From positions 1 to 47,866 of the IMG/VR virus record IMGVR_UViG_3300035698_018606: a DNA stretch of 47,866 nucleotides; one strand, given 5' to 3'. The position numbers were made by a program, and so were the translations under genes. Numbering within the stretch: position 1 is the first letter of the stretch; each line of letters opens with the position of its first letter. The DNA comes from a virus. This document shows positions 7,664-47,866 of this stretch, one piece after another. The notes under the pieces were generated by a model. It saw nothing but the letters and a program-made list of their open reading frames with translations, made no database searches and was not told the origin of the DNA.

Positions 7664-9553
7664 ATGGCATTTGCACTTTCTCCGGGAGTCTATTCTAAAG
7701 AGGTGGATCAATCTACTATTATAAGCTCTGTACAAACATCAATTGGAGCAGTAGTAGGTTATAGTCCTAGAGGTCCTTTGGGTAGACGACTGATTACGAA
7801 TAATAAAGAGTTCGTTGATTTATATGGTATTCCTGTTCCAGGAAACTATCTCCATTATACTGCTTTAGGTTTTCTTACTAAAGGTGGTAATTTGTATGTT
7901 AATCGAGTAACTAATGGAGCTTTGTATGGTGGTGTAGAAATAAAAAGAGGGGATTCTCAGTATGATAATGCAGCATTAGATACTGGAGTTTCTGATCCTT
8001 CTGCTTATTCTACTTCTCCAGGTTTTGGAACAGATGGTTTGCTAGCTATATTCCCAGGCAATCCTGGGGTATGGAATAATGATTGTTCTGTTAGAATTAC
8101 CAACATAACTAATCCGACAGGAGCATGGAGTTCGGCTAGTTCGAGTTCTTCTAATAGTTCAAATAGTAGTGTGAGTTCTTCAAGTTCTTTGAACAGTTCA
8201 CAAAGTAGCGTAAGTAGTTCTAAAAGTTCTGTGTCTTCAAGTAACAGTTCACAGAGTTCTGTTTCTTCGGTTAGCAGTTCGAACAGCAGCACTAGCTCAA
8301 GTAGTTCTTTACGATCTAGTAGCAGTTCTTTAAGTTCTTCTAATTCAAGTAGCAGTTCTAGTAAAAGTTCCAATAGTTCCAATTCCAGCAATAGTAGCTC
8401 TTCTAGCTCAAACAGTAGTTCTGCTGCTGCAGTAGGTCTTTATGAATTTGACGTTGAATTCTATGAAAAAGATGATAATGACATTTATCAACTTAAGATG
8501 AAGAAAACAGTGTCCCGTAAAGATCAGAAGAATGGTTTTGGACAAGATGAGTATGTTGGAGATGTTTTTGCTCCTGGTGAAAATGACTATGTAATAGTAA
8601 TGGACAACACTACGGTAGATGATACTATCTCACCTAAGCCTCAGTTGGTTGATTTAGCGGTTGCTGGTGGTAGTGATGGTTCTGCTATTACTAATTCTCT
8701 AATTGTGAATGGATGGGATGAATTTATTAATCCCGAAGAAGTTACTGTTAATATTCTGATGTCGGGGGGTTATACAAATCAGGCAGTACTTCGAAAGATT
8801 GATGAAATAGCAGGTACTTATCGTAAGGATTGTATCGGAGTTTTAGATGTCCCTTATGGTTATACAAGTGCCAATGATTTAGTAACTTGGAGACAAGATA
8901 CCTTATCTGTTAATTCGTCTTATTCTGCTCTATACTCTTCTTGGTTGGAAGTTTATGATTCTTATAATGATAAGACCTTGTTCATTCCTCCAAGTGGCTA
9001 TATAGGTGCTTCTTTTGCTTATACTGATCTTGTGAGCGAACCTTGGTTCCCTAACGCTGGACTCAATAGAGGTTTATTGAATGTCAGTGGGATTGAAAAG
9101 AATTGGAGTCAGGCTGAAAGAGATGTTCTTTATCCTGCTCAGATCAATCCTATTAGGAATCATCCAAGTGGAGGCACTGTCATTTGGGGCCAAAAGACTC
9201 TCCAGACTAAAGATTCTGCGTTATCAAGTGTTAATGTTCGTAGGTTGATGATTGTTCTGGAAGTAGCAATGACCAGATCACTTGAGTATTATGATTTTGA
9301 ACCTAATGACAGATTCACAAGAATTTTGATAACAAATATGATCGATAGTTATTTGAGAGGAATTGAAGCTAAAAGAGGTGTGTATGATTATAGTGTGGTG
9401 TGTGATGACACTAATAACACCCCCGATATAATAGATCGTAGAGAATTGAATGTAGATGTTTATGTTCAACCTGCTAAAGCTGCTGAATCTATTCAACTGC
9501 AAGCTATTATAACCAGAACAGGTGTTAGCTTTGATGAAGTGATAGGCACGTAG
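7664..9553 (+). CDS. contractile tail sheath protein with inserted serine-rich tract, 629 aa
   Basis: The N-terminus (LSPGVYSKEVDQS, GAVVGYSPRGPLG, NLYVNRVTNG) and the C-terminal part (TRSLEYYDFEPNDRFTRILI, YDYSVVCDDTNN, VDVYVQPAKAAESIQ) match the phage tail sheath family. Sheath subunits form the contractile cylinder round the tube. Residues 156-253 are a Ser-rich tract with scattered Asn, Lys, Val and Leu, inserted in the variable middle of the protein, where other sheaths carry surface-exposed extra domains. After the tract comes a beta domain (YEFDVEFYEKDDN). RBS AAGGAG is present. A strong terminator follows at 9568. Confidence 0.93.
   Translation: MAFALSPGVYSKEVDQSTIISSVQTSIGAVVGYSPRGPLGRRLITNNKEFVDLYGIPVPGNYLHYTALGFLTKGGNLYVNRVTNGALYGGVEIKRGDSQYDNAALDTGVSDPSAYSTSPGFGTDGLLAIFPGNPGVWNNDCSVRITNITNPTGAWSSASSSSSNSSNSSVSSSSSLNSSQSSVSSSKSSVSSSNSSQSSVSSVSSSNSSTSSSSSLRSSSSSLSSSNSSSSSSKSSNSSNSSNSSSSSSNSSSAAAVGLYEFDVEFYEKDDNDIYQLKMKKTVSRKDQKNGFGQDEYVGDVFAPGENDYVIVMDNTTVDDTISPKPQLVDLAVAGGSDGSAITNSLIVNGWDEFINPEEVTVNILMSGGYTNQAVLRKIDEIAGTYRKDCIGVLDVPYGYTSANDLVTWRQDTLSVNSSYSALYSSWLEVYDSYNDKTLFIPPSGYIGASFAYTDLVSEPWFPNAGLNRGLLNVSGIEKNWSQAERDVLYPAQINPIRNHPSGGTVIWGQKTLQTKDSALSSVNVRRLMIVLEVAMTRSLEYYDFEPNDRFTRILITNMIDSYLRGIEAKRGVYDYSVVCDDTNNTPDIIDRRELNVDVYVQPAKAAESIQLQAIITRTGVSFDEVIGT
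8129..8422 (+). repeat. serine-rich tract in the sheath gene
   Basis: Ninety-eight codons, mostly serine, using mixed TCT, TCA, AGT, AGC, TCG and TCC codons with Asn, Val, Lys, Leu, Gln, Thr and Arg interruptions. The mixture of the TCN and AGY families avoids a pure trinucleotide repeat. It is probably an extended, disordered, surface-exposed linker and a candidate O-glycosylation substrate. Confidence 0.9.
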
Positions 9554-10137: not shown

Positions 10138-10638
10138 ATGGCTAATGATTTAATACAAAGAATTAATAGTTTAGGAACTCCACAATTCAAATATAGGTTT
10201 GGGGTGGAGCTTCCTGCTATTGATGGTTTTGATGTTAAATTGATACAAGATCGAATTATAAGTATAGCTCCTGTTTTAGAAATAGTGAATGCTGTTCAAA
10301 ATGCTCCAAGTGCTAATAGTTATTGGTATTTTTTCAATGATGATGATGTTTCTTCATTTACTATAACATCAACAGAATGGCAAGATTTTCTATGCATTAG
10401 ATATTTTTTAGCTTGGAATAGTTTACAGGTGAATGATGATGGAACTTATAATGTTCCTGATTATTGGAAAAAGACTATTAATGTAAATTTTTTATCACCC
10501 GATGATAAGCCTTTATTCACAATACAATTAATAGATGCCTTTCCAATTAGAAAGACTATTCCTGATTTGAGTTATGATAGTTCTGATCCTGTAAACATAG
10601 AAGTAGAGTTTGCATATGATTCATTTAAAATTAAATAG
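10138..10638 (+). CDS. second tail tube-like protein (tube paralogue), 166 aa
   Basis: The C-terminus DLSYDSSDPVNIEVEFAYDS parallels the tube protein's NLDYASNDPVNVPVTFRFDD, and the overall length is nearly the same, so it is a diverged paralogue. Tandem tube-like genes are known in T4-type tails, where gp19-fold proteins also form the baseplate-proximal ring (gp54 and gp48). It could be the tube initiator or a second tube subunit. The gap to the first tube gene is 10 bp and the RBS (AAGGA) overlaps the upstream stop. Confidence 0.72.
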   Translation: MANDLIQRINSLGTPQFKYRFGVELPAIDGFDVKLIQDRIISIAPVLEIVNAVQNAPSANSYWYFFNDDDVSSFTITSTEWQDFLCIRYFLAWNSLQVNDDGTYNVPDYWKKTINVNFLSPDDKPLFTIQLIDAFPIRKTIPDLSYDSSDPVNIEVEFAYDSFKIK

Positions 10639-10665
10639 ATTCTATAATTTTTGAAGGAGAACCGG

Positions 10666-11415
10666 ATGGCTAAGATAAGAGATATGGAAGATAAGAAAGT
10701 TGTTCCTAATAATCAATATGCTATGTGTATTGATCTAGTAACATGTGATGCTAAGATGAAAGAGAACTATCCAAAAAAGGTAAAAGTAAATCCTTATAAC
10801 GTATGTCAGATGAAAAAAATGGTATATGGCAAAGGGGACAATTACTCAAGCATGTTAGCAGACATTGTTGATTCTTTGATCGACGTAGATGTCAGACAAT
10901 TAACTCTTATTGACTATGATAAAATTCTTTTGTTCTTAAGGATAAATTCCTGTGGTTCTTCCATACTAGAATACAATGTTAAATGTGATAAATGCGAAAA
11001 GTATTCTCCATTTAAAATTGATCTATCTACATTGGATATAAAAGCAGTTCCTAGTGCTTTCTCGGAACCTCAAGAGATGAATAATGAGTTGTCCCTTATC
11101 TTGCCTAGATTGGGAGCTAAACTTGAATTTGATGAAATGTCTGAAAAATTGGATTTGATTGATTATCAAGCTTTGTACATAGAACAAGGGAACACTTTCA
11201 AAGAGAAATTAGAGATATACAATAGTCTTTCTCCTCAATTTGTTACAAAAGAATTTCACACCTTTATTTCATCTGTGAATTCTTATGGGATTGATACAGA
11301 TACTAAGCATGTTTGTTCTGTTATTTTGAATCATGAGACGGTTGAGAAATGTGGAGCCGAGGAGGTGCTCCATATTCCCTTTCGCAGAAAGTTCTTTTTT
11401 CCCAACTACATATGA
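10666..11415 (+). CDS. T4 gp26-like baseplate/tail assembly protein, zero-frame product, 249 aa
   Basis: Start at ATG 10666, five bases after AAGGAGA; the upstream in-frame TTG would sit on the RBS. The middle (DIVDSLIDVDVRQLTLIDYD, LLFLRINSCGSS, YNVKCDKCEKYSPFKIDLS) resembles the T4 baseplate gp26-type family: a helical region followed by a treble-clef-like CxxC segment and a beta strand. It lies between the tube and tape-measure genes, where tail assembly chaperones are encoded. The frame ends in TGA 11413-11415, just after T6CCC, and the +1 frame remains open to 11548, so an extended form is likely. Confidence 0.65.
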   Translation: MAKIRDMEDKKVVPNNQYAMCIDLVTCDAKMKENYPKKVKVNPYNVCQMKKMVYGKGDNYSSMLADIVDSLIDVDVRQLTLIDYDKILLFLRINSCGSSILEYNVKCDKCEKYSPFKIDLSTLDIKAVPSAFSEPQEMNNELSLILPRLGAKLEFDEMSEKLDLIDYQALYIEQGNTFKEKLEIYNSLSPQFVTKEFHTFISSVNSYGIDTDTKHVCSVILNHETVEKCGAEEVLHIPFRRKFFFPNYI

Positions 11416-11548
11416 GACCATAATGAAGAAACAATTTAATCTATGGTTCTATTTACAAGGGTTGTCCGATTCAACTGAAACTATGTTTTATGATGAATTT
11501 TTAAGATATCATATAATGTTGAAAGATAAATTAGAGGATAATAAATGA
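11401..11548 (+). CDS. +1-frame extension of the gp26-like gene (probable frameshift product)
   Basis: The +1 frame continues with TTYETIMKKQFNLWFYLQ and LSDSTETMFYDEFLRYHIML. This is coherent protein, but no start with a convincing ribosome binding site precedes it; the only ATG, at 11423, has a weak leader and would give 41 residues. A +1 slip at CCC-A (11401-11404) lets a proline tRNA re-pair with CCA and yields about 246 + 47 residues. The stop overlaps the tape-measure ATG (ATGA). Alternatives are a separately initiated mini-protein or a one-base sequence error. Confidence 0.55.
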
Positions 11549-13242
11549 CCCCTTCTTTAAAAGACATTGCTTCTAGTAAAATTCAAATCATTGAGATGTC
11601 TAATGATATTGAATATAATATGAAGAAGTTGAAACAAATGAGGACCGAAGGGGAATGGGATTCTTCTGTAAAATCAGTTGAATCTTTGATTGTCAAAAAA
11701 TTAGTAGTAAATTCAATGGACAATATAGGAAGCCTTCCTTCTGAAAATCAGAATACTATTAATACGCCTGACACATCAGATAAGGTAAAAGATATTCAAG
11801 CTTCAGATTCTCCTGCTATAAATGAATTATCTGATAAGATAGATGATGTTAAAGATGTCAATGAAGATCAATTAGATGAGACTAAGAACTCTAATGAGGA
11901 AGCAAAGAAAAGAAGTCTACTAGATAGAGCTTCAGATAAATCAAAACAGTTAGCAGAAAAAGCAATAGAAACAACAGCAGGAAAAGAATTCTCTACTTTA
12001 GGGATTCGAATGTTGGCAGATACTGCTGGTTTAGGGTTTCTCCCTGATATCATAGCGGAAGCTGTGGGAACAGATATCCCTACTGCCTTGTCTACTTCTT
12101 TTAAGAAATTAACTTCTAGTGATGATAAAAAGGAAGAAAAAGAATTAGTAGACACTGAAAAATCTAGTTTAAAAAATGAAGAAGAACAAAAAGAGATATC
12201 TAAGAAAGCAATGGAATCTTTAGATGAGAATAACAAATTACTGGAGAAATCTAATGATGTCGAAAAGTTAAAAGTAAAGACAGATATAGAATACCAAGAA
12301 GATGCTGTATACGAACTTAAGAAAATGAATGAGACTTTGGAAGATGTGGAAGGAATGGGGGACGGAGGTGGAGGGTTTACAAGTGGTTTGGCAGGTGCTT
12401 TAGGAGGTTCTATCGCTGGCATATTTACAGGGACTGTTTTCCCATACATATCAAAAACATTTTTATCTATAGGAGCTAAGATTCTTCCTGCTTTAGGATC
12501 AGTAGCTCAAATAGCAGGACCAGTAATCGCTTTAGGTGCTTCTCTTTGGACATTAAAAGAATCTATAGATCTTGTTAGAACAAGGGCTGATGTAGAGAAA
12601 AGTAAGATTCGATTAGCAAACAAGAGAGCTGAAAATATGCAGATTTCAGCTCAAATAGATGCAGAAAGAGTGGGTTTAGATTTAAGAGAAGTTCAAAGTG
12701 CTAGAGTGGAAACCCCAGAAGGAAAACAATTCACAGAAGATCAATTGGAAACAAAAAGAACTTTTCAAGAAAAAAGAATGAAGTCATTAGATGTTAAAAT
12801 AGGGGATTTAGATAAAGAAAGAAAAAAATCTGAAGAAGCAATAGGAGGTTCTTGGCGAGGAGATTGGTTAGGTGGATGGACTAAAGAACGCCAAGAAGAT
12901 CTTAATAAACTTCAACAACAAAGAGCAGAAATAGCGGGGGATATTGGTAGTATCGATGCTAAATCTTTTTCTATGAAGAAAGAAATACAAGTAATAGAGA
13001 AAAAAGAAATTGTAAAAGAAAAGATCCAATCAATCAAAGAAGCTCCTACTGTTATAAAAACCACTGGAGGAATTGAATCAGTAACAGAAGAATTGAAAAA
13101 GAACAATAAACAAATTGAAGAATTAACTAAGGTAACAGCGCAAAACAAAGCTCCTATAATTAAGTACTCAAATTCTGGTTTAAATATGCAAGCTGATTTG
13201 ATAAATGACGGTCCTGTTCTTTTAAGAGCGATGGGGTTATAA
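11545..13242 (+). CDS. tape measure protein (T4 gp29-like length), 565 aa
   Basis: Overlaps the upstream frame by ATGA. Residues about 1-260 are charged and helical with strong coiled-coil character. Residues about 272-345 contain glycine-rich hydrophobic helices (GLAGALGGSIAGIFTGTVF, GSVAQIAGPVIALGASLW) that could insert in a membrane. Residues 350-520 are again coiled coil. Helical termini around a hydrophobic centre, in the position between the assembly-chaperone-like and hub genes, are typical of tape measure proteins. The length is close to T4 gp29 (590 aa) and implies a short to medium tail. Confidence 0.8.
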   Translation: MTPSLKDIASSKIQIIEMSNDIEYNMKKLKQMRTEGEWDSSVKSVESLIVKKLVVNSMDNIGSLPSENQNTINTPDTSDKVKDIQASDSPAINELSDKIDDVKDVNEDQLDETKNSNEEAKKRSLLDRASDKSKQLAEKAIETTAGKEFSTLGIRMLADTAGLGFLPDIIAEAVGTDIPTALSTSFKKLTSSDDKKEEKELVDTEKSSLKNEEEQKEISKKAMESLDENNKLLEKSNDVEKLKVKTDIEYQEDAVYELKKMNETLEDVEGMGDGGGGFTSGLAGALGGSIAGIFTGTVFPYISKTFLSIGAKILPALGSVAQIAGPVIALGASLWTLKESIDLVRTRADVEKSKIRLANKRAENMQISAQIDAERVGLDLREVQSARVETPEGKQFTEDQLETKRTFQEKRMKSLDVKIGDLDKERKKSEEAIGGSWRGDWLGGWTKERQEDLNKLQQQRAEIAGDIGSIDAKSFSMKKEIQVIEKKEIVKEKIQSIKEAPTVIKTTGGIESVTEELKKNNKQIEELTKVTAQNKAPIIKYSNSGLNMQADLINDGPVLLRAMGL

Positions 13243-16152: not shown

Positions 16153-17802
16153 ATGGTCGATTTGACTAGAGATTCAACTTACAGTGATTTAGATTTTGGA
16201 TTAAGAAGAGATCTAGGCAATAATTTAAAAATTGTTAAGGATCTTGAAGCTGTTATTCAATCCATTGAGACAATATTTTTGACACCTGTTCGAAGTAGGA
16301 AATTTCTTCCTGAATTTGGATGTTTTGCAGGTGATACTACAATAAGACTTTTATCAAGCGAACAAGTAAGAATACAGGATCTTGTAGGGGAACAGGCTTG
16401 GACGTATGGATGTACTGCAGAAGGTCTTATCATACCAACAAAATCATCTGGTGCTGTTTGTAAAGGATATCGTGAAGTAGTAGTCGTTGAAATTGATTCA
16501 GGAGAGGAGTTTATATGCACGCCTGATCATCGGTTTATGATGAGAAATGGACTATATCAAGAAGCTCAATATCTTATCCCAGGAACCTCTTTGATGCCTT
16601 TGTACACTAAATATTCTGATCGTGGTTATGAAATGGTGTACGTCCCTAGAGATCATGATTATCAATTCACTCATAAATTGTCTTGTCAGACTGACTGTTT
16701 AGAAGGATCAGTCATTCATCATCTCGATTTTAGAAAATGGAATAATGAACCAAGCAATTTACAAATACTTGGATTTGATGATCATATTGAGTTGCATTCA
16801 TCACATGTAAGTAAAATGTTTGAGAAAGGTAATCCGTTATATAATTATTGGAATTCTGATGATCCTGAAATTGTTTATAGAAGAAATGCCCAAATTGCTA
16901 TTATGACTGATACTATTATGAGACATAATCAACGTTTACAAGATGATCCAAAATATCGAAAAGCTTGTAGGATCAAAAGAAATAACACACTCGATAGTAA
17001 TGGGACAAGAGATGTTTTAGTATCTACTGGGAAAAAGAATGCTGAAAAAATTGGTTATGAAATTTTAAGTCAAAGGATGTCTCTAACAATCACTAAGTGG
17101 TGGAGTTCACTTACTAACAAAGAAAGAAATGATCGTATTACTAACTGGATTTCAGCAATGCGTACTGGTCTTGGTCAATGGAAAGTACATCATCCTGATA
17201 AATACGAAGAAGTACTTCAAGCTAATGGTCAAAGATTAGTTAAATGGCACACTTCGTTATCTGAAGATCATCCTGAACGAAAGCGTAGAAGTGATCATTA
17301 TCATACTATAGGATTAGCTAATAGAAAAGATGTTACATTTGAAGATATTCTTAAGTATGCATCTGTTTTAGATTATCCTACTCGTACAGAGTTGATGAAA
17401 GACATTCAAGATCATTTTGGAATTTCTAGGTCAACCATGAAAAGACGAGTTAATTTGAGTGAGATTAAGAATCACAAAGTAGTGAAAGTTACTAGGTTGA
17501 ATAAAAAGGTAAAAGTTTATGATCTAGTTGATTCAATGACTCGGAACTTTCCTATTGGGTCAGGTGTTTTTGTTCATAATTCTAATTTAGACTACCAATT
17601 ATTTGAGCCTATGTCAACAGCAACTTCCATTGCCATTAAAAATGAAGTAAGAACAACCATTAATAGGTGGGATTCCCGATTGATACTAACAAACATAAAA
17701 GTAATCCCTGATTATGATGCCAATGAATATCAACTAAGCATTGAAGGTTACGTTGAGGGATTAGAAGAATTTAGTTATTCGAAAGCAATTTCGGCTGGAT
17801 AG
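16153..17802 (+). CDS. gp25-like baseplate wedge protein interrupted by an HNH intein, 549 aa precursor
   Basis: Removing residues 57-476 leaves a 129-residue protein, close to T4 gp25 (132 aa). The N-extein ends RSRKFLPEFG and the C-extein starts SNLDYQLFEP, rebuilding the most conserved motif of the gp25 wedge family. Gp25 nucleates wedge assembly and contacts the sheath. The intein supplies Cys57, a TPDHRF block-B motif and a C-terminal VHN before Ser+1. The C-extein continues to the stop with INRWDSRLILTNIKVIPDYD and a closing beta region. The precursor must splice to yield a functional wedge. Confidence 0.92.
   Translation: MVDLTRDSTYSDLDFGLRRDLGNNLKIVKDLEAVIQSIETIFLTPVRSRKFLPEFGCFAGDTTIRLLSSEQVRIQDLVGEQAWTYGCTAEGLIIPTKSSGAVCKGYREVVVVEIDSGEEFICTPDHRFMMRNGLYQEAQYLIPGTSLMPLYTKYSDRGYEMVYVPRDHDYQFTHKLSCQTDCLEGSVIHHLDFRKWNNEPSNLQILGFDDHIELHSSHVSKMFEKGNPLYNYWNSDDPEIVYRRNAQIAIMTDTIMRHNQRLQDDPKYRKACRIKRNNTLDSNGTRDVLVSTGKKNAEKIGYEILSQRMSLTITKWWSSLTNKERNDRITNWISAMRTGLGQWKVHHPDKYEEVLQANGQRLVKWHTSLSEDHPERKRRSDHYHTIGLANRKDVTFEDILKYASVLDYPTRTELMKDIQDHFGISRSTMKRRVNLSEIKNHKVVKVTRLNKKVKVYDLVDSMTRNFPIGSGVFVHNSNLDYQLFEPMSTATSIAIKNEVRTTINRWDSRLILTNIKVIPDYDANEYQLSIEGYVEGLEEFSYSKAISAG
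16321..17580 (+). mobile_element. intein with HNH homing endonuclease, 420 residues, in the gp25-like gene
   Basis: Begins with Cys57 in CFAGDTTIRLL, has the block-B TPDHRFM, and ends YDLVDSMTRNF...GVFVHN, giving His-Asn before Ser+1; these are the standard splicing residues. The inserted endonuclease is HNH type: His189-His190 (VIHHLDF), Asn202 in EPSNLQIL and His211/His215 in DDHIELHSSH. A helix-turn-helix (DHFGISRSTMKRRV), near residues 445-460 and typical of DNA-recognition modules in homing enzymes, precedes the splicing C-terminus. All expected residues are intact, so splicing and homing may be active. Confidence 0.93.
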
Positions 17803-17810
17803 GATTATAA

Positions 17811-20800
17811 ATGGCAGGTAATGATAGTTATACAAAATTACTTCTTCATTGCAATGGAATTGATGGTGCTACTACTTTTCCTGATGATTCAGTAAGTGGG
17901 GATGCCCATTCAGTTTCAGCTCAAGGTGATGCTCAAGTTGATACTGCTCAAAGTAAATTTGGCGGGGCTTCTGCTTTATTGGACGGGACAGGAGACTATT
18001 TACTTGTCCCTAATAGTAATGACTTTAATTTTGGATCAGATAATTTTACTATTGATTTTTGGGTTCGGCATACTTCCGTAGCTCTTATTTCTTATTTTCA
18101 GAAATTTTCAGATACAAGTAATAGAATAGGGATGTCAGGTGATTCTACTTCTGTGTCCTTTTACTGTGTGTCTGCAGGTTCCTCAGTAGTTAATGTTAAA
18201 GCTACAGGATTATCTTTATTAGTAGATCAGTGGTATCATTATGCTATTGTTAGAAATGTAAATGATTGGCGAATTTATATTGATGGTGTTAATGTAACTA
18301 CTGATGGAGGAACAGATTCTGACACCATTCCTGATTTAGCTGTTGATTTTCTTATAGGGTATTATAATGCAGGAGCTCCAACTTATTTAATAGGTCATAT
18401 AGATGAATTTAGAGTATCTAAAGGAATTGCTAGATGGACAACTGCTTTTACTCCTCCTACGGAACCATACACATCTGAAAATTCTTCAAGTAGTTCGAGT
18501 GTGTCAAGCAGTAAAAGTAGTTCTAAAAGCTCAGTAAGTTCGGTGAGTTCAAGTGGAAGTTCGGTGAGTTCAAGTGGAAGTTCTAACAGCTCTAATAGCT
18601 CCAGTGGTAGTTCGGTGAGTTCAAGTGGAAGTTCTAACAGCTCTAATAGCTCCAGTGGTAGTTCAGTTAGCTCATCTAACTCAAGCAGTAGTTCTAAAAG
18701 TTCAGTAAGTTCTAGTAGTAGTTCAGTTAGTTCATCTAACTCAAGCAGTAGAAGCAGTTCTAGTAGCAGTAAAAGTTCATCAAATTCAAGTTCTAGTAGT
18801 TTTTTAAGTTCATCTAGCTCAGTGAGTTCCACAAGTAGTAGTTCTAAAAGTTCAGTAAGTTCTAGTTCCTCGGTAAGTAGTTCTAGTTCCATTTCTAGTA
18901 GTTCTTCAAGTTCAAAAAGTTCAATCAGTTCTTCTAATTCTAGTGCAAGTTCAGTGAGTTCATCAAGCTCAAGTAAATCTAGTGAGTCTAGTCAAAGTAG
19001 CAGCAGTAGTTCAATAAGTAGCAGTAGTAGTAAATCTAGTTCAAGTAGTAGTTCAGTTAGTTCTTCTAGCTCTAGTAAATCTTCTGTAAGTTCATCTAAT
19101 TCAAGTAGCAGTTCAAATAGTTCAAGCAGTTCTTCAAAATCAAGTAGCAGTTCAAATAGTCGATCATCAAGTAGTTCCAGTGATAGTAGTTCTAAAAGTT
19201 CTGTGTCAAGTAGTAATTCAAGCAATAGTAGTTCCAGTAGCAGTTCTTTGTCGAGTGTGAGTTCAAGTAGTAGTTCAAAATCTAGTGTAAGTTCTGTTAG
19301 TTCTTCAAGTTCTAATAGTTCCTCGTCTAGCTCGGATAGCTCAAGTAGTAGTTCAAAAAGCTCCAGTTCAAGCAGCTCTTTAAGTTCAAGAAGCTCTTCC
19401 AGTTTAAGCAGTAGTAATTTTAGTTCTTCTAGCTCAGAAAGTTCTGTCAGTAGTCTTAGTTCATCATGGTCTTCATTTACATGGGAAGATACTCATGTTA
19501 TGGATGAGGTTAAAACATGGCTTGTCCCTGAAAGATATTATACAGATGATGTGCAATATGTGATAGCTGCTTTAGCTGAAGAGTCCCAATCAATATATGA
19601 TGATATCACAGAATTACCAGCACAAAGATCAGTCACTCAAGTGCCTAGTGATCATCTTTCAAACATAGAATACTTCTTAGGATTATCACAAGAGCCTGAT
19701 TGGGATGACGAAAGAAGAAGACGAAGATTACTTATCAACTCTGATTTAATTAGAATGAAAGGAACTACGGACTCATTCAATTATTGGTTCTATCTTTATT
19801 ATATGGATGTGGACATAAATACATTATGGACAGATAAGTATTTTTACTTTATATCAACCCCACCTTCAGGGGATATGAAGTATTATCCTACTCCTCATTT
19901 TGCTTTGAATGTTCATGTAGATAGCTCTAATCAATATCTTATCAGTGAGATTTTAAATTTAGAAGAGACTTTAATTAGATTTGAAGTGATTGATACAGGA
20001 ACTGGCACTCCTATTGTAGACGGAACGATAACAAATACTCCATTAGTAGAAGGATCTGTCTATGTTCATACTACTGTTTTGGGGTCTGAAGAAATAGTCA
20101 AAGATAATAATAATGGTGGGTTTGAAGACTTAGATGGTAATCCTGCAGTAGGTTCTATTAGTTATACCACAGGTATTATTGCAGGATTGAATTTCTCAGG
20201 ACCGGTTGGTTTAGGTACAGATGTTACTTGTAATTATAAATACGATAATTCAACAGCAGTACCATCAAATCGTCATAGTTTAGAGTCAGTATTGTCCCAA
20301 ATAAATACTTACGTTAAACCAGCAGAAACTACCATGGAGTATTCTTGGTTTGATGAAGAGTTGGTTGATCCTTACCATTTTGATATTGAAGATGCTTCTT
20401 TCTCCATAACAGTTGATGAGAAAGGGAGTTCTTCAAGCAGTAAGAGTTCATCAAGTTCTTCAAGTTCAAGTAAATCTTCTGTATCAAGTTCATTATCAAG
20501 CACATCTTCTGTAAGTTCAAGAAGTAGTGGATCAGAATCTTCTAGCAGTTCAAGCACAGGTGATTTGAACCTTAATATACTAAGACCCGAATATATTGGG
20601 GAAGAGACTATTAAATTTGATAAATTCAAATTGAAGTGGAAAATAGGGGAAAAGCCATACGACCAAGAGATGCCAGACGGTAAGAAGGTTGTTATCGTAT
20701 ACCATACTTATACAGAGATAGTAGACACCGATAAGAAAGGAACTATTAAATCTAATATAGGAAAAGTCAATACTTCATTATGGGAAGGCATGTCTGCTCG

Positions 20801-22065: not shown

Positions 22066-24696
22066 ATGAAGCAATACGATTTTGAATCCACTAAAACTAG
22101 ATTACTTGAAAGAATAACAGCTCAAGTAAGTGAAAATGATCCAGCTTATCCTGCATGGAAAGATAAGTGGGAGTCAAGTTCTGGGACTGTTTTTGTTGAA
22201 CTTATGGCTGCTTCGATCGACCATTTAGGGTATTATTTGGAGAGAAGAGTAATTGAAAATTATATGAACACAGCTATTTTTAAGTCATCTATATATAATT
22301 TAGGTGCTGAGTTAGGATACACACCTACTAGGAAAAAAGCTGCTTCAGGTACTTCTACTTTAGTGTTTGATTCCCCGGTTGATACTACCCAATATATAGA
22401 TGCAGGGACTACTTTAAAAGGTGATTATGATATAACTACTAAGGATGAATTTATTATAGCTCCTGGAGGGACTGCTATTGGAACAGGGAACGCCATAGCA
22501 ACTTCCTTTGAGATCACCTTTAGTAATAAGATATCAACTTCTTCTTTAAACATCTATAGAGCAGGAATTCTTGTTGCTTCTGATGACGGGGCAGGTTTGA
22601 TTTCAGGCACTAACAACACTGTTTCAGGAACAGTTGATTATGATACGGGTAATATAATTGTTACTTTTTCCATCGCCCCCGCTTCTGGTGTTGCTATAAC
22701 TGCTGATTATAACAGAGAATATGATTTCACAGTATACCAAGGTGAACTACAAACTTTCACTAAAGACATAGATGAGACAGTATCCTATATAGAATTGACA
22801 GATTCTTTTATAAATATCAGTGAATCGTACATAACAGTTTTTGTAGAAGATGAATCAACCGGAACAGTTACCGAATACACTAAGGCAACTGTTGGAATGC
22901 CGAGAGCCAGAGATAATGATAGATGGTATTGGTTTAGATATAGTTTTGATGATAAATTAAGATTGTATTTTGGGGATGGGACTTATGGAAAGAATCCCTT
23001 TAGTGATGGCACTAAAATAACTGTAACTTATCTAACCACCGATGGGTTAGCAGGGAATACAACCGCTTTCTTTAATAGTAAATTCTCGTCAAATGCTCCT
23101 ACGACTTCTGGCGGATCTGTTTATGATACTGCTAAATATGCTTTAACAGTAGGTACTTTGTCCGATGGGTTAGATTCGGAAAGCTTAGACCAATCAAGAA
23201 CCAATTCTATAAACTTATATGCTTCTGGTTTGAGAGCTGTTACTAAGTTGGATTATAAGTATTGGGTAGAATCAGTTAGTGGGATATCCAAATCAAATGC
23301 ATGGGGGGAAGAAGAAGTAACTCCTGCCAATATTGAAATGAGAAACACTATTAGATTCACTGCTGTTGATTCTGATTGTGTAGATATTGACAATTCAATA
23401 GTTTACGGAACTGCTACCATCACTGAAAATCTTCCAGGATCAGGTGATTTTAATAAAGTAACTGATCTAAGCACTAATTTCTCTACTTCTGGAATAGCGG
23501 TAGGTAATACAGTTATAATAGCAAGAGAATTAAAAATAGTTGATCAAGTAGCTCCTGGAGGAGATAACTTTTCCATATTAATAAGATCAGCTTTTGTGGC
23601 GGGTAGTTTGACTAGAACACCTTACCACATAACCGCCGATGCTACTCCTTTGTCGGAAACAGTAAAAACTACTATGGAAGATTACAAGACTATTACCAAC
23701 ACCTTAGTTTATATTCCTCCTATCGTATTAAATGTTGATCTATTAGTGGATGTGGAAGTATCGAGTGGGTATTCTTCAAGCACTGTTTTGTCAAATATAG
23801 AAACAGCTTTAAATGATTTGTATGTTCCTACTTATTTTGATTTTGATGAGGCTGTTGCCAAGAGTTATTTTTGGAATACTATAACGGAAGTGGCTGGAGT
23901 AAAAACATGTTCAATAACATGGTCTGTTGATGATGAGTATTCTATTAATAATTATTTTGAAGTTACTGGAACAGATTCATTTAGAAAGATTGCTAAATTA
24001 AATAGTTCTGATATTAAGGTAAAAGGACAAAGAACAGTTTACTTCTCTTCTAGCTCAAGCAGTTCTATGTCCAGTACATCTAGTGAGAACAGTTCGGTAT
24101 CAAGCTCTTCTGTTAGTAGTCAATCAAGCGTATCTTCTAGTAAGAGTTCGGTTAGTTCAAGTTCCTCTAATAGTAGTTCTTCAAGTTCTAAGAGTTCTTC
24201 AAGTTCTAGCAAGAGTTCAAGCTCTTCTGTAAGTAGCTCTTCAAGCAGTAAAAGTTCTGTAAGTTCAAGTAAATCGAGTAGTTCCAGTAATTCTAGTTCT
24301 GATAGTAGCTCAAGTGTCCAGTCGAGCAGTTCCAGTAGTGTCAGTAGTAGTAGCTCGAATTCATCAAGCAGTTCTTCTTCGGGGAGTGTAGGAACTATAA
24401 TTGAGACAGGAGATACTTATGGTCAATTATCTGGGTTCTATAAAATAACAGGATATGCTGATAATCTTGATGTGAATAATAAATTGTACTTTGTATTCAA
24501 TGCTCTAGGTCATGTTAATATTTATTCAGACTCCACTTTATTGCATATGATAGGATACACTAATGATGTTGTTGATACTACTGTGAATGTCCCAATCTTT
24601 GAGGAAGACACTTCTGGCTTAGGTGGTTATATTGACATAACTAAACCAGCAATAGGATTCCAAAATGATATTGACATTGCAGCACAATGGATATAG
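22066..24696 (+). CDS. baseplate J-like wedge protein with serine-rich tract, 876 aa
   Basis: The N-terminal half follows the gpJ/gp6 wedge pattern: a helical start with FVELMAASIDHLGYYLERRV, then TTQYIDAGTTLKGDYDITTK and a beta domain. The C-terminal part of the wedge core shows KTTMEDYKTITNTLVYIPPI followed by LNVDLLVDVEVSSGYSSSTV, a standard J-type ending. Residues 661-774 are a Ser-rich tract, followed by a roughly 100-residue beta domain (LYFVFNALGHVNIYSDSTLL) that would be displayed at the end of the linker. It closes the tail module; the sugar cluster begins 92 bp later. Confidence 0.82.
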   Translation: MKQYDFESTKTRLLERITAQVSENDPAYPAWKDKWESSSGTVFVELMAASIDHLGYYLERRVIENYMNTAIFKSSIYNLGAELGYTPTRKKAASGTSTLVFDSPVDTTQYIDAGTTLKGDYDITTKDEFIIAPGGTAIGTGNAIATSFEITFSNKISTSSLNIYRAGILVASDDGAGLISGTNNTVSGTVDYDTGNIIVTFSIAPASGVAITADYNREYDFTVYQGELQTFTKDIDETVSYIELTDSFINISESYITVFVEDESTGTVTEYTKATVGMPRARDNDRWYWFRYSFDDKLRLYFGDGTYGKNPFSDGTKITVTYLTTDGLAGNTTAFFNSKFSSNAPTTSGGSVYDTAKYALTVGTLSDGLDSESLDQSRTNSINLYASGLRAVTKLDYKYWVESVSGISKSNAWGEEEVTPANIEMRNTIRFTAVDSDCVDIDNSIVYGTATITENLPGSGDFNKVTDLSTNFSTSGIAVGNTVIIARELKIVDQVAPGGDNFSILIRSAFVAGSLTRTPYHITADATPLSETVKTTMEDYKTITNTLVYIPPIVLNVDLLVDVEVSSGYSSSTVLSNIETALNDLYVPTYFDFDEAVAKSYFWNTITEVAGVKTCSITWSVDDEYSINNYFEVTGTDSFRKIAKLNSSDIKVKGQRTVYFSSSSSSSMSSTSSENSSVSSSSVSSQSSVSSSKSSVSSSSSNSSSSSSKSSSSSSKSSSSSVSSSSSSKSSVSSSKSSSSSNSSSDSSSSVQSSSSSSVSSSSSNSSSSSSSGSVGTIIETGDTYGQLSGFYKITGYADNLDVNNKLYFVFNALGHVNIYSDSTLLHMIGYTNDVVDTTVNVPIFEEDTSGLGGYIDITKPAIGFQNDIDIAAQWI
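24046..24387 (+). repeat. serine-rich tract in the baseplate J-like gene
   Basis: 114 codons, mostly serine, with Met, Thr, Glu, Asn, Val, Gln, Lys and Asp interruptions, joining the wedge core to a C-terminal beta domain. Codons mix TCT, TCA, AGT, AGC and TCG. Confidence 0.9.
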
Positions 24697-46247: not shown

Positions 46248-47866
46248 CTATATCTGTTCTAAATCTTCTTTTTTAATAGTGTTCTTTAGTTCTATAGACG
46301 AAGAATTCTCATGGAAAAACGAATACATAGGTTCTGCTTTCACATCATTGACAGCATTATATATAGACCCCACAAAAGAGTCTAACATGTCTTTTCTTAA
46401 TCTTGTTGTTAATTTACTCTTTTTAGGATCTTTTTTCAGCTTGTCTTTTATCCCCATTGTTTCTTTGATAGCTTTTGCTTGTTTGAAAAGAGTAGGGCAA
46501 TTTCCTATTCTTACCGCATTATTATGGACAGTGGCAGCTACTCTATAATAAGCTTCTAAAGAACGGTCCACCGATAATCTTCCAGCAGGTAATTTCATTT
46601 TTTGCAGGTTTTGAAGCATTTGAGAAGATTGGTATTGGTCAGCCGTTATTGTGCCAAAACTAACATTGTATTTTGTTTTTAATGTTTCCATTAAATCTTG
46701 AACAGCAGAAATCTCAATCCTATTAGGTGATGTTATCTTCATCACAAAATCAACCACATACAAAACCTTATTCTCTTCCCCCAATTCTTTATGACACAAA
46801 GTAACTCCGGCTTCTGTTGCCTCGGCCAAATCGATGTGACAATTAGACACCACCACTCCTGCATCTAATGCAAAATTATGATTATTATGAGGATTGTCTA
46901 TAGTTAAATCATATACATTAGTATTTTTTGCTTCTATGATTTCTATATTAATTATTTTATGATTTTTATAATTAATCATATCATACAATTTATCAATTCC
47001 GCCTATTTTATTTATCATATTATCATACGACATAAGACCGTTATATTTATTATCATCCCATAAAATTTTAGTAATAGCACTATTATTAAGTAATAATTTA
47101 GATGCAAAATTACATAATTTTGATAATTCTCGTTTCTTAATAATTTTAGGATCAGAATTAAGTCTCTTGCATAAAGTACTAGCTTGTTGTTTTTTCTTCT
47201 TTTTGCACTCATTAAATTTATTAATGTATTCCTCAGAGAGTGATTGTTTTATTTTAGATGATAATTCATTTATATCTATTCTATTATTAATAATTGTATT
47301 TATCATGCAATATTCAGTTAAAAAATAAGATAATGCAGTATCATAAGCCATTGCCCAGCATAAATAATATTTATGATAATTCCAATTTTCTTTAGTTATT
47401 TTTCCATAATTATACAATAAATCACTACCAAATGCTATTATTTTGCCTATATTACGTTTATAAATAATTTTAGGATTGCTATTAGTTAATTTAGCGATTA
47501 TTTTGCCATTTCTAGATTGATTGTCTTTAAAAATTTGACTATATTTAGGATTTTTGTGCAATGCACTAAGTGTAATACTCGCAAGTTTTCGATGAACATC
47601 ACTTTTATTATAATCAATTAATGCTTGTCTCCCTGATTTTCGTTGGATAGGTTTCATTTTCTTTCTAAATTTTTCAGAATCAATCCCATGCCAATTATTA
47701 TACATATTAATTGGACCATTAATTTTCCCCGAATTACTGTTTACTATTTTCATTTTTTCTCTAAAATCAGGGTTTTTCCATTGATTAGCCCATCCACATT
47801 TATCTGCATGATTAGAATGTAACGTAATATGAGAGATATTTCCTAATAAATGTATATTACTAGGAT
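46248..47866 (-). CDS. terminase large subunit, intein-interrupted, N-terminal part outside window
   Basis: The frame is open to the window edge (base 47864); the ATG at 47753 is internal. Residues after the intein (46248-46841) are the RNase H-like nuclease domain: HIDLAEATEAGVTLCH holds the first metal-binding Asp, then VDFVMKITSPNR, GTITADQYQSSQMLQNLQKM, LSVDRSLEAYYR and VRIGNCPTLF, matching terminase large subunit C-termini. It cuts and packages concatemeric DNA. The intein must splice before the nuclease works. Both the ATPase domain and the N-extein lie beyond the window. Confidence 0.82.
   Translation of the reverse strand, partial: PSNIHLLGNISHITLHSNHADKCGWANQWKNPDFREKMKIVNSNSGKINGPINMYNNWHGIDSEKFRKKMKPIQRKSGRQALIDYNKSDVHRKLASITLSALHKNPKYSQIFKDNQSRNGKIIAKLTNSNPKIIYKRNIGKIIAFGSDLLYNYGKITKENWNYHKYYLCWAMAYDTALSYFLTEYCMINTIINNRIDINELSSKIKQSLSEEYINKFNECKKKKKQQASTLCKRLNSDPKIIKKRELSKLCNFASKLLLNNSAITKILWDDNKYNGLMSYDNMINKIGGIDKLYDMINYKNHKIINIEIIEAKNTNVYDLTIDNPHNNHNFALDAGVVVSNCHIDLAEATEAGVTLCHKELGEENKVLYVVDFVMKITSPNRIEISAVQDLMETLKTKYNVSFGTITADQYQSSQMLQNLQKMKLPAGRLSVDRSLEAYYRVAATVHNNAVRIGNCPTLFKQAKAIKETMGIKDKLKKDPKKSKLTTRLRKDMLDSFVGSIYNAVNDVKAEPMYSFFHENSSSIELKNTIKKEDLEQI
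46842..47866 (-). mobile_element. HNH intein in the terminase large subunit gene (5' end outside window)
   Basis: The C-terminal splicing region is VYDLTIDNPHNNHNFALDAG-VVVSN followed by Cys+1 (46839-46841). The penultimate residue is Ser rather than the usual His. At the open 5' end, PSNIHLLGNISHITLHSNH resembles EPSNLQIL...HIELHSSH of the other intein's HNH domain. Between them lie two related blocks (NSNPKIIYKRNIGKIIAFGS and NSDPKIIKKRELSKLCNFAS) that may be DNA-recognition repeats. At least 341 residues are visible. Confidence 0.85.

Follow-up and report, generated by a model that had tools for sequence, protein, structure and literature searches.

The lambda-type tail-assembly chaperones G and GT (Xu, Hendrix and Duda, 2004, as cited in PMC6316719 and PMC5009743) come from a gene located between the tube and tape-measure genes, in a short form and a frameshifted long form, with the slip near the 3' end of the gene. 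The slip is mostly -1, in line with the remark of the first-pass annotation that chaperone frameshifts in phages are usually of this type. T4 is listed in a 2016 review as an exception to conserved chaperone frameshifting (PMC5009743). As reported in papers citing Vladimirov, Gautam and Davidson (2022), T4-like phages have a short form and a fused long form, and polyT -1 slippery sites are found in some of them. Cyanophage gp51 is only about 20% as long as other gp51 proteins, and the similarity lies at the C terminus (Sullivan et al., 2010; PMC3037559). Published work, with Vladimirov et al. (2022) represented by its citing papers, describes T4-like chaperones as -1 or frameshift-free. The locus analyzed here has the lambda layout, but its protein belongs to PF12322, not to lambda G, and its predicted shift is +1. 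The best reading of the sequence, with a probability of about 0.87, is one gene in which a programmed +1 frameshift yields short and long tail-assembly chaperones, as the first-pass annotation had proposed for this gp26-like gene.

The window, i.e., the whole stretch of DNA analyzed, is a virus record of 47,866 bp with 52 genes (14,449 codons) and contains a T4-type contractile tail module. The sheath gene (7664-9553) is present together with two tube paralogues, one of which (10138-10638) lies upstream of the gp26-like gene (10666-11415; this and the following features of the locus are on the plus strand). A predicted Shine-Dalgarno sequence, AAGGAG (10654-10659), lies 6 nt before the ATG at 10666. 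The gene is followed by a 565-aa ORF (11545-13242) with the Shine-Dalgarno sequence AGAGG (11533-11537). Because this ORF had no family match among Pfam and PHROG profiles, it is assigned as the putative tape measure by position only. On its 3' side are, in order, a PmgG-like gene, a short baseplate-wedge-like gene, a gp5-like hub gene, gp25, and a gp6-like wedge gene. Long serine-rich low-complexity stretches (SSSSKSSVSSSNSS..) were observed inside three tail genes, in the sheath gene at about 8100-8400, in the 17811 gene at about 18490-19500, and in the gp6-like wedge gene at about 24060-24420, and also in the sheath gene of a related contig, L003. In addition, the gp25-like wedge gene (16153-17802) contains an intein (Pfam Intein_splicing, E=8e-14; the HNH match is weak), and a minus-strand ORF running off the end of the window (46248-47864) appears, judging only from its translation, to be an intein-containing gene with a terminase-like C-terminal part.

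The gp26-like identity claimed for the 249-aa product was borne out. The protein scored 44.6 bits against PF12322, the T4 gp26/gp51 chaperone family (curated cut-off 24.5), and matched phrog_150 (E=5e-11). Its AlphaFold model, made with an alignment of 29 relatives, had a pLDDT of 83, and in fold comparison it resembled the predicted structures of SP-15 and T4-like hub proteins; sequence and fold searches of the PDB returned nothing usable. The position of the gene between the tube gene and the ORF in the tape-measure position, and a C-terminal part in another frame that reaches this ORF, are both features of two-isoform chaperone genes.

The zero frame from the ATG at 10666 ends TTC (11392) TTT TTT CCC (11401) AAC TAC ATA TGA (11413-11415). 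After a slip, the +1 frame would read TTC CCA ACT ACA TAT and remains open for 47 codons past CCC-A until the TGA at 11546-11548, which overlaps the ATG at 11545 as ATGA. The coherent +1 extension ending at the start of the next gene (TTYETIMKKQ..EDNK, 11405-11548) is therefore present as first described, and the zero-frame stop is indeed close behind T6CCC-A, although it ends 11 nt after CCC-A and not at the 10 bp given earlier. The sequence TTTTTTCCC was found once in the window when both strands were scanned and holds the only in-frame TTT_CCC among all codons of the window genes, where CCC makes up 5.5% of the Pro codons. The -1 frame shuts right after the zero-frame stop, in contrast to what is typical of tail chaperones with a -1 shift, and a -1 shift in the window was therefore rejected. 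CCC is followed in the A site by AAC or ATT and not by a stop codon. A search for downstream RNA structure at the slip site found none (z 0.19 and 0.17), and no upstream Shine-Dalgarno-like stimulator was conserved between the window and L003. Several other gene ends in the window have longer open alternative frames, so that the mere presence of about 45 open codons in the +1 frame is unremarkable. The evidential weight lies with the conservation and coding selection of the extension and not with the length of the frame.

The comparison with L003 provides this evidence. L003 is an independent 6.5-kb contig and the only close relative found, through a search of IMG/VR with the tube protein. When the fused chaperone, the protein in the tape-measure position, and the 13244 protein were each searched against IMG/VR, no match was obtained; searches of genome contigs and of plasmids found no relatives, and scanning DNA for the pattern of the slip context returned only L003 once more. 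L003 keeps TTCTTTTTTCCCA, an aligned +1 extension, its own zero-frame stop at the same place (TAA for TGA), and the ATGA overlap. Over the last ~460 nt, the two sequences have only three exact matches of at least 9 nt, and the 13-nt site TTC-TTT-TTT-CCC-A (11392-11404) is among them. In the +1 frame, pS between the two extensions was 0.76 and pN was 0.23, and the mismatches by codon position were 11/8/25 (p=0.0036), indicating that the extension evolves as a +1-frame protein and is under purifying selection in that frame. A 21-nt segment at 11483-11503 (ATGTTTTATGATGAATTTTTA, MFYDEFL) was also identical in L003 despite otherwise saturated synonymous sites, an identity that may be fortuitous or reflect a second RNA element.

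The same comparison bears on whether the frame is real. A homopolymer in a metagenomic contig might suggest that a sequencing or assembly error split one continuous gene, an outcome that the first-pass annotation expected to show itself as an uninterrupted frame in relatives. L003 is broken likewise at saturated synonymous divergence, which makes such an error very unlikely, and since about 45 clusters of relatives also break at the homologous site, its probability is negligible. The extension might instead be a separate small gp51-like protein, produced by termination-reinitiation just past the gp26 stop. The window has a candidate ATG (11423-11425) 8 nt past the stop, and a small separate ORF is annotated here in PhiXhv-12, KVP40, P-SSM2, S-SM2, and others; in the last three it is labeled gp51-like and lies between gp26 and the tape measure, and the KVP40 record describes it as similar to the C-terminal 40 residues of T4 gp51. 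However, this ATG is ATC in L003, where the first half of the extension has no ATG and the first in-frame one comes 70 nt beyond the stop, so that conservation does not extend to a separate ATG start close to the gp26 stop. The clear ribosome-binding site anticipated for a separately initiated gene was not seen either, GAG being the only possible Shine-Dalgarno sequence. Moreover, the extensions of six relatives (L076, L080, L081, L094, L101, and L108) contain no ATG at all, and in the T4/cyanophage branch, loci with an annotated separate ORF also have U_UUU_UUC and an open -1 frame. A separate start is thus improbable, and a programmed +1 shift accounts better for the conserved site, frames, and selection.

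The survey of the family extended these results. Two profile scans of IMG/VR gave 92 loci, whose PF12322 gene ends were read and proved to be of two kinds, either without a short extension or with one, mostly in the +1 frame. Several copies of the first kind continue into a second gene whose start motif is similar. The short +1 extensions are preceded by (E/D)-TTT-TTT-CGT-CCT or TTT-TTT-TGG-CCT, while the site is TTC-TTT-CCC-TAA in phiXF1 and QdP_Psa3 and TTC-TTT-CCC-TCT in BcepSauron. At 70% identity, the loci with a +1 extension formed 45 clusters, 40 of which had the FF motif in the inspected tail; LR756511 and LR756508 (L018, L019) were left out of the tally. Vibrio phage GR7B (L009), which has an open +1 frame, was excluded as its gene has neither a PF12322 match nor an FF site. 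The last Phe codon was UUU in 40/40 FF clusters, the base after it was C or U in 39/40, and an Arg following FF was encoded by CGN in 24/24, though AGR dominates in most of these loci. Without a slip, nothing would keep the first base of CGN from being A, so this constraint points to a slip. The survey codon probabilities of 10^-9 and 10^-17 assume independence, and the clusters are related, though far diverged. Together with the 13-nt identity between the window and L003, these counts show that the re-pairing codon is conserved beyond coding need, as expected of a +1 slip.

Two further explanations can be weighed against the same counts. RNA polymerase slippage on the T6 run could give a fraction of transcripts with a frame-joining indel, and the run is indeed present in the window, L003, and many relatives. 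Six T residues are short for transcriptional slippage, and several relatives with only TTC-TTT (three T) still have the +1 extension. Slipped transcripts also leave the CGN constraint unexplained, and this origin is highly unlikely. A -2 ribosomal shift on the T6 run, which would reach the same frame with one extra Phe (KFFFFPTTYE), has a similarly small chance. The TTT at 11398 could re-pair at 11396-11398, and -2 shifting is known in phage Mu. However, 10 of the 40 FF clusters have TTC-TTT, which offers poor -2 re-pairing, and yet keep UUU and then C; the constrained base after UUU is what a +1 slip requires.

A programmed +1 shift could occur in the window at any of three codons, 11395 (UUU_U), 11398 (UUU_C), or 11401 (CCC_A). 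All three give KFFFPTTYET, and the protein therefore cannot tell whether Phe-tRNA on UUU or Pro-tRNA on CCC slips. The earlier suggestion that CCC-A allows re-pairing of Pro-tRNA to CCA is tenable, and tRNA-Pro(UGG) shifts +1 in vitro, fastest on CCC-A (PMC4519876). Four relatives without FF (L102, L105, L107, and L111) end in ELFNPS (AAT CCC AGT) followed by an open +1 extension; CCC_AGT is their only obvious slip point, and they count toward CCC_A. Across the family, it is the UUU codon and the next base that are constrained, which counts toward UUU. CCC-A as the sole slip point was set aside, as the slipping UUU of the family aligns with 11395-11397 and the three points give one product. 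We lean slightly toward a slip on UUU while the A site holds the rare CCC. In three other relatives (L037, L077, and L032), GGGGTGGA(G/C) lies directly before TTT_TTT_C, with a spacing like that of the Shine-Dalgarno stimulator of RF2 frameshifting.

Under a programmed +1 shift, most ribosomes would terminate at the TGA at 11413 and produce the 249-aa short form (TAC-N). A fraction would slip +1 on the run TTTTTTCCCA while the next codon is awaited, the rare CCC possibly supplying the pause, with peptidyl-tRNA-Phe re-pairing from UUU to UUU or UUC, or peptidyl-tRNA-Pro from CCC to CCA. The shifted ribosomes would read to 11548 and produce a 293-aa long form (TAC-NC) ending ..KFFFPTTYETIMKKQ..EDNK. 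By analogy with lambda G/GT, this minor long form might connect tube subunits with the tape measure while the tail is being assembled and depart afterward.

In P-SSM2, S-SM2, KVP40, and Atu_ph07, U_UUU_UUC is located two codons before the gp26 stop and is followed by an open -1 frame, i.e., the T4/cyanophage branch has a putative -1 heptamer at the homologous place. A tree built without the slip columns required at least two changes between +1 and -1. In this tree, the window and L003 grouped with the UUU_CCC phages phiXF1, QdP_Psa3, and BcepSauron (weak support, long branches). Open -1 extensions behind T_TTT_TTT or T_TTT_TTC were also observed in L078, L115, L116, and L117, and the tree places L078 amid +1 relatives. 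Of six group profiles of the extension, the case for homology to other groups depends on one, that of the SP-15 group, with which the extensions of the window and of L003 took the top two places among 922 segments (E=0.0036 and 0.0039, respectively); a pooled profile of 52 relatives gave no significant match. The +1 extension corresponds to an unannotated intergenic gap in phiXF1 (L005:9733-9882), QdP_Psa3 (L011:2167-2319), and LIS04 (L017:2230-2460), and is annotated as a fragment ORF in SP-15. On balance, we think it rather probable that the gp26/gp51 chaperones are an ancient frameshift family with a homologous Phe-Phe slip position, in which the shift is +1 at UUU_Y (UUU_CGN, UUU_UGG, UUU_CCC) in most branches and -1 at U_UUU_UUC in the T4/cyanophage branch, and in which the two separate genes of T4 are a derived condition. 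If so, the T4 chaperone family uses frameshifting widely, often +1, at sites missed by annotation, and it provides a natural case of a recoding site switching direction in evolution.

The design of a short and a long chaperone is already known, and the variant in the lineage of the window is therefore the +1 direction, which is unusual among chaperones of this family and seems to be widespread but overlooked. Similar to the window gene, T4 gp26/gp51 belong to PF12322 and comprise a short form and a form with an extra C-terminal part, but in T4 these come from separate genes, in contrast to the single gene with a +1 site in the window. Among +1 systems, the Listeria phages PSA, A118, and A500 use CCC_UGA, and SPP1 gene 17.1 uses CCCUAA (PMC5009743, PMC6316719). 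The window shares with them the rare Pro codon CCC, but those sites lie in capsid or tail tube genes and mostly have a stop in the A site, whereas in the window the site belongs to a chaperone gene and the stop comes four codons after CCC. The chaperone shift of the haloarchaeal myovirus HSTV-2 is described as very likely +1 (PMC5009743); this predicted shift, too, lies in a myovirus tail chaperone gene, but the virus is archaeal. The influenza A PA-X site is UCC_UUU_CGU (PMC8310308). The homologous site is UUU_CGN in most relatives of the window gene, where re-pairing would likewise be from UUU to UUC, and the UUU_Y sites, if functional, would be examples of a PA-X-like shift tractable in bacteria. 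Influenza A, however, is an animal RNA virus, and the window itself has UUU_UUU_CCC.
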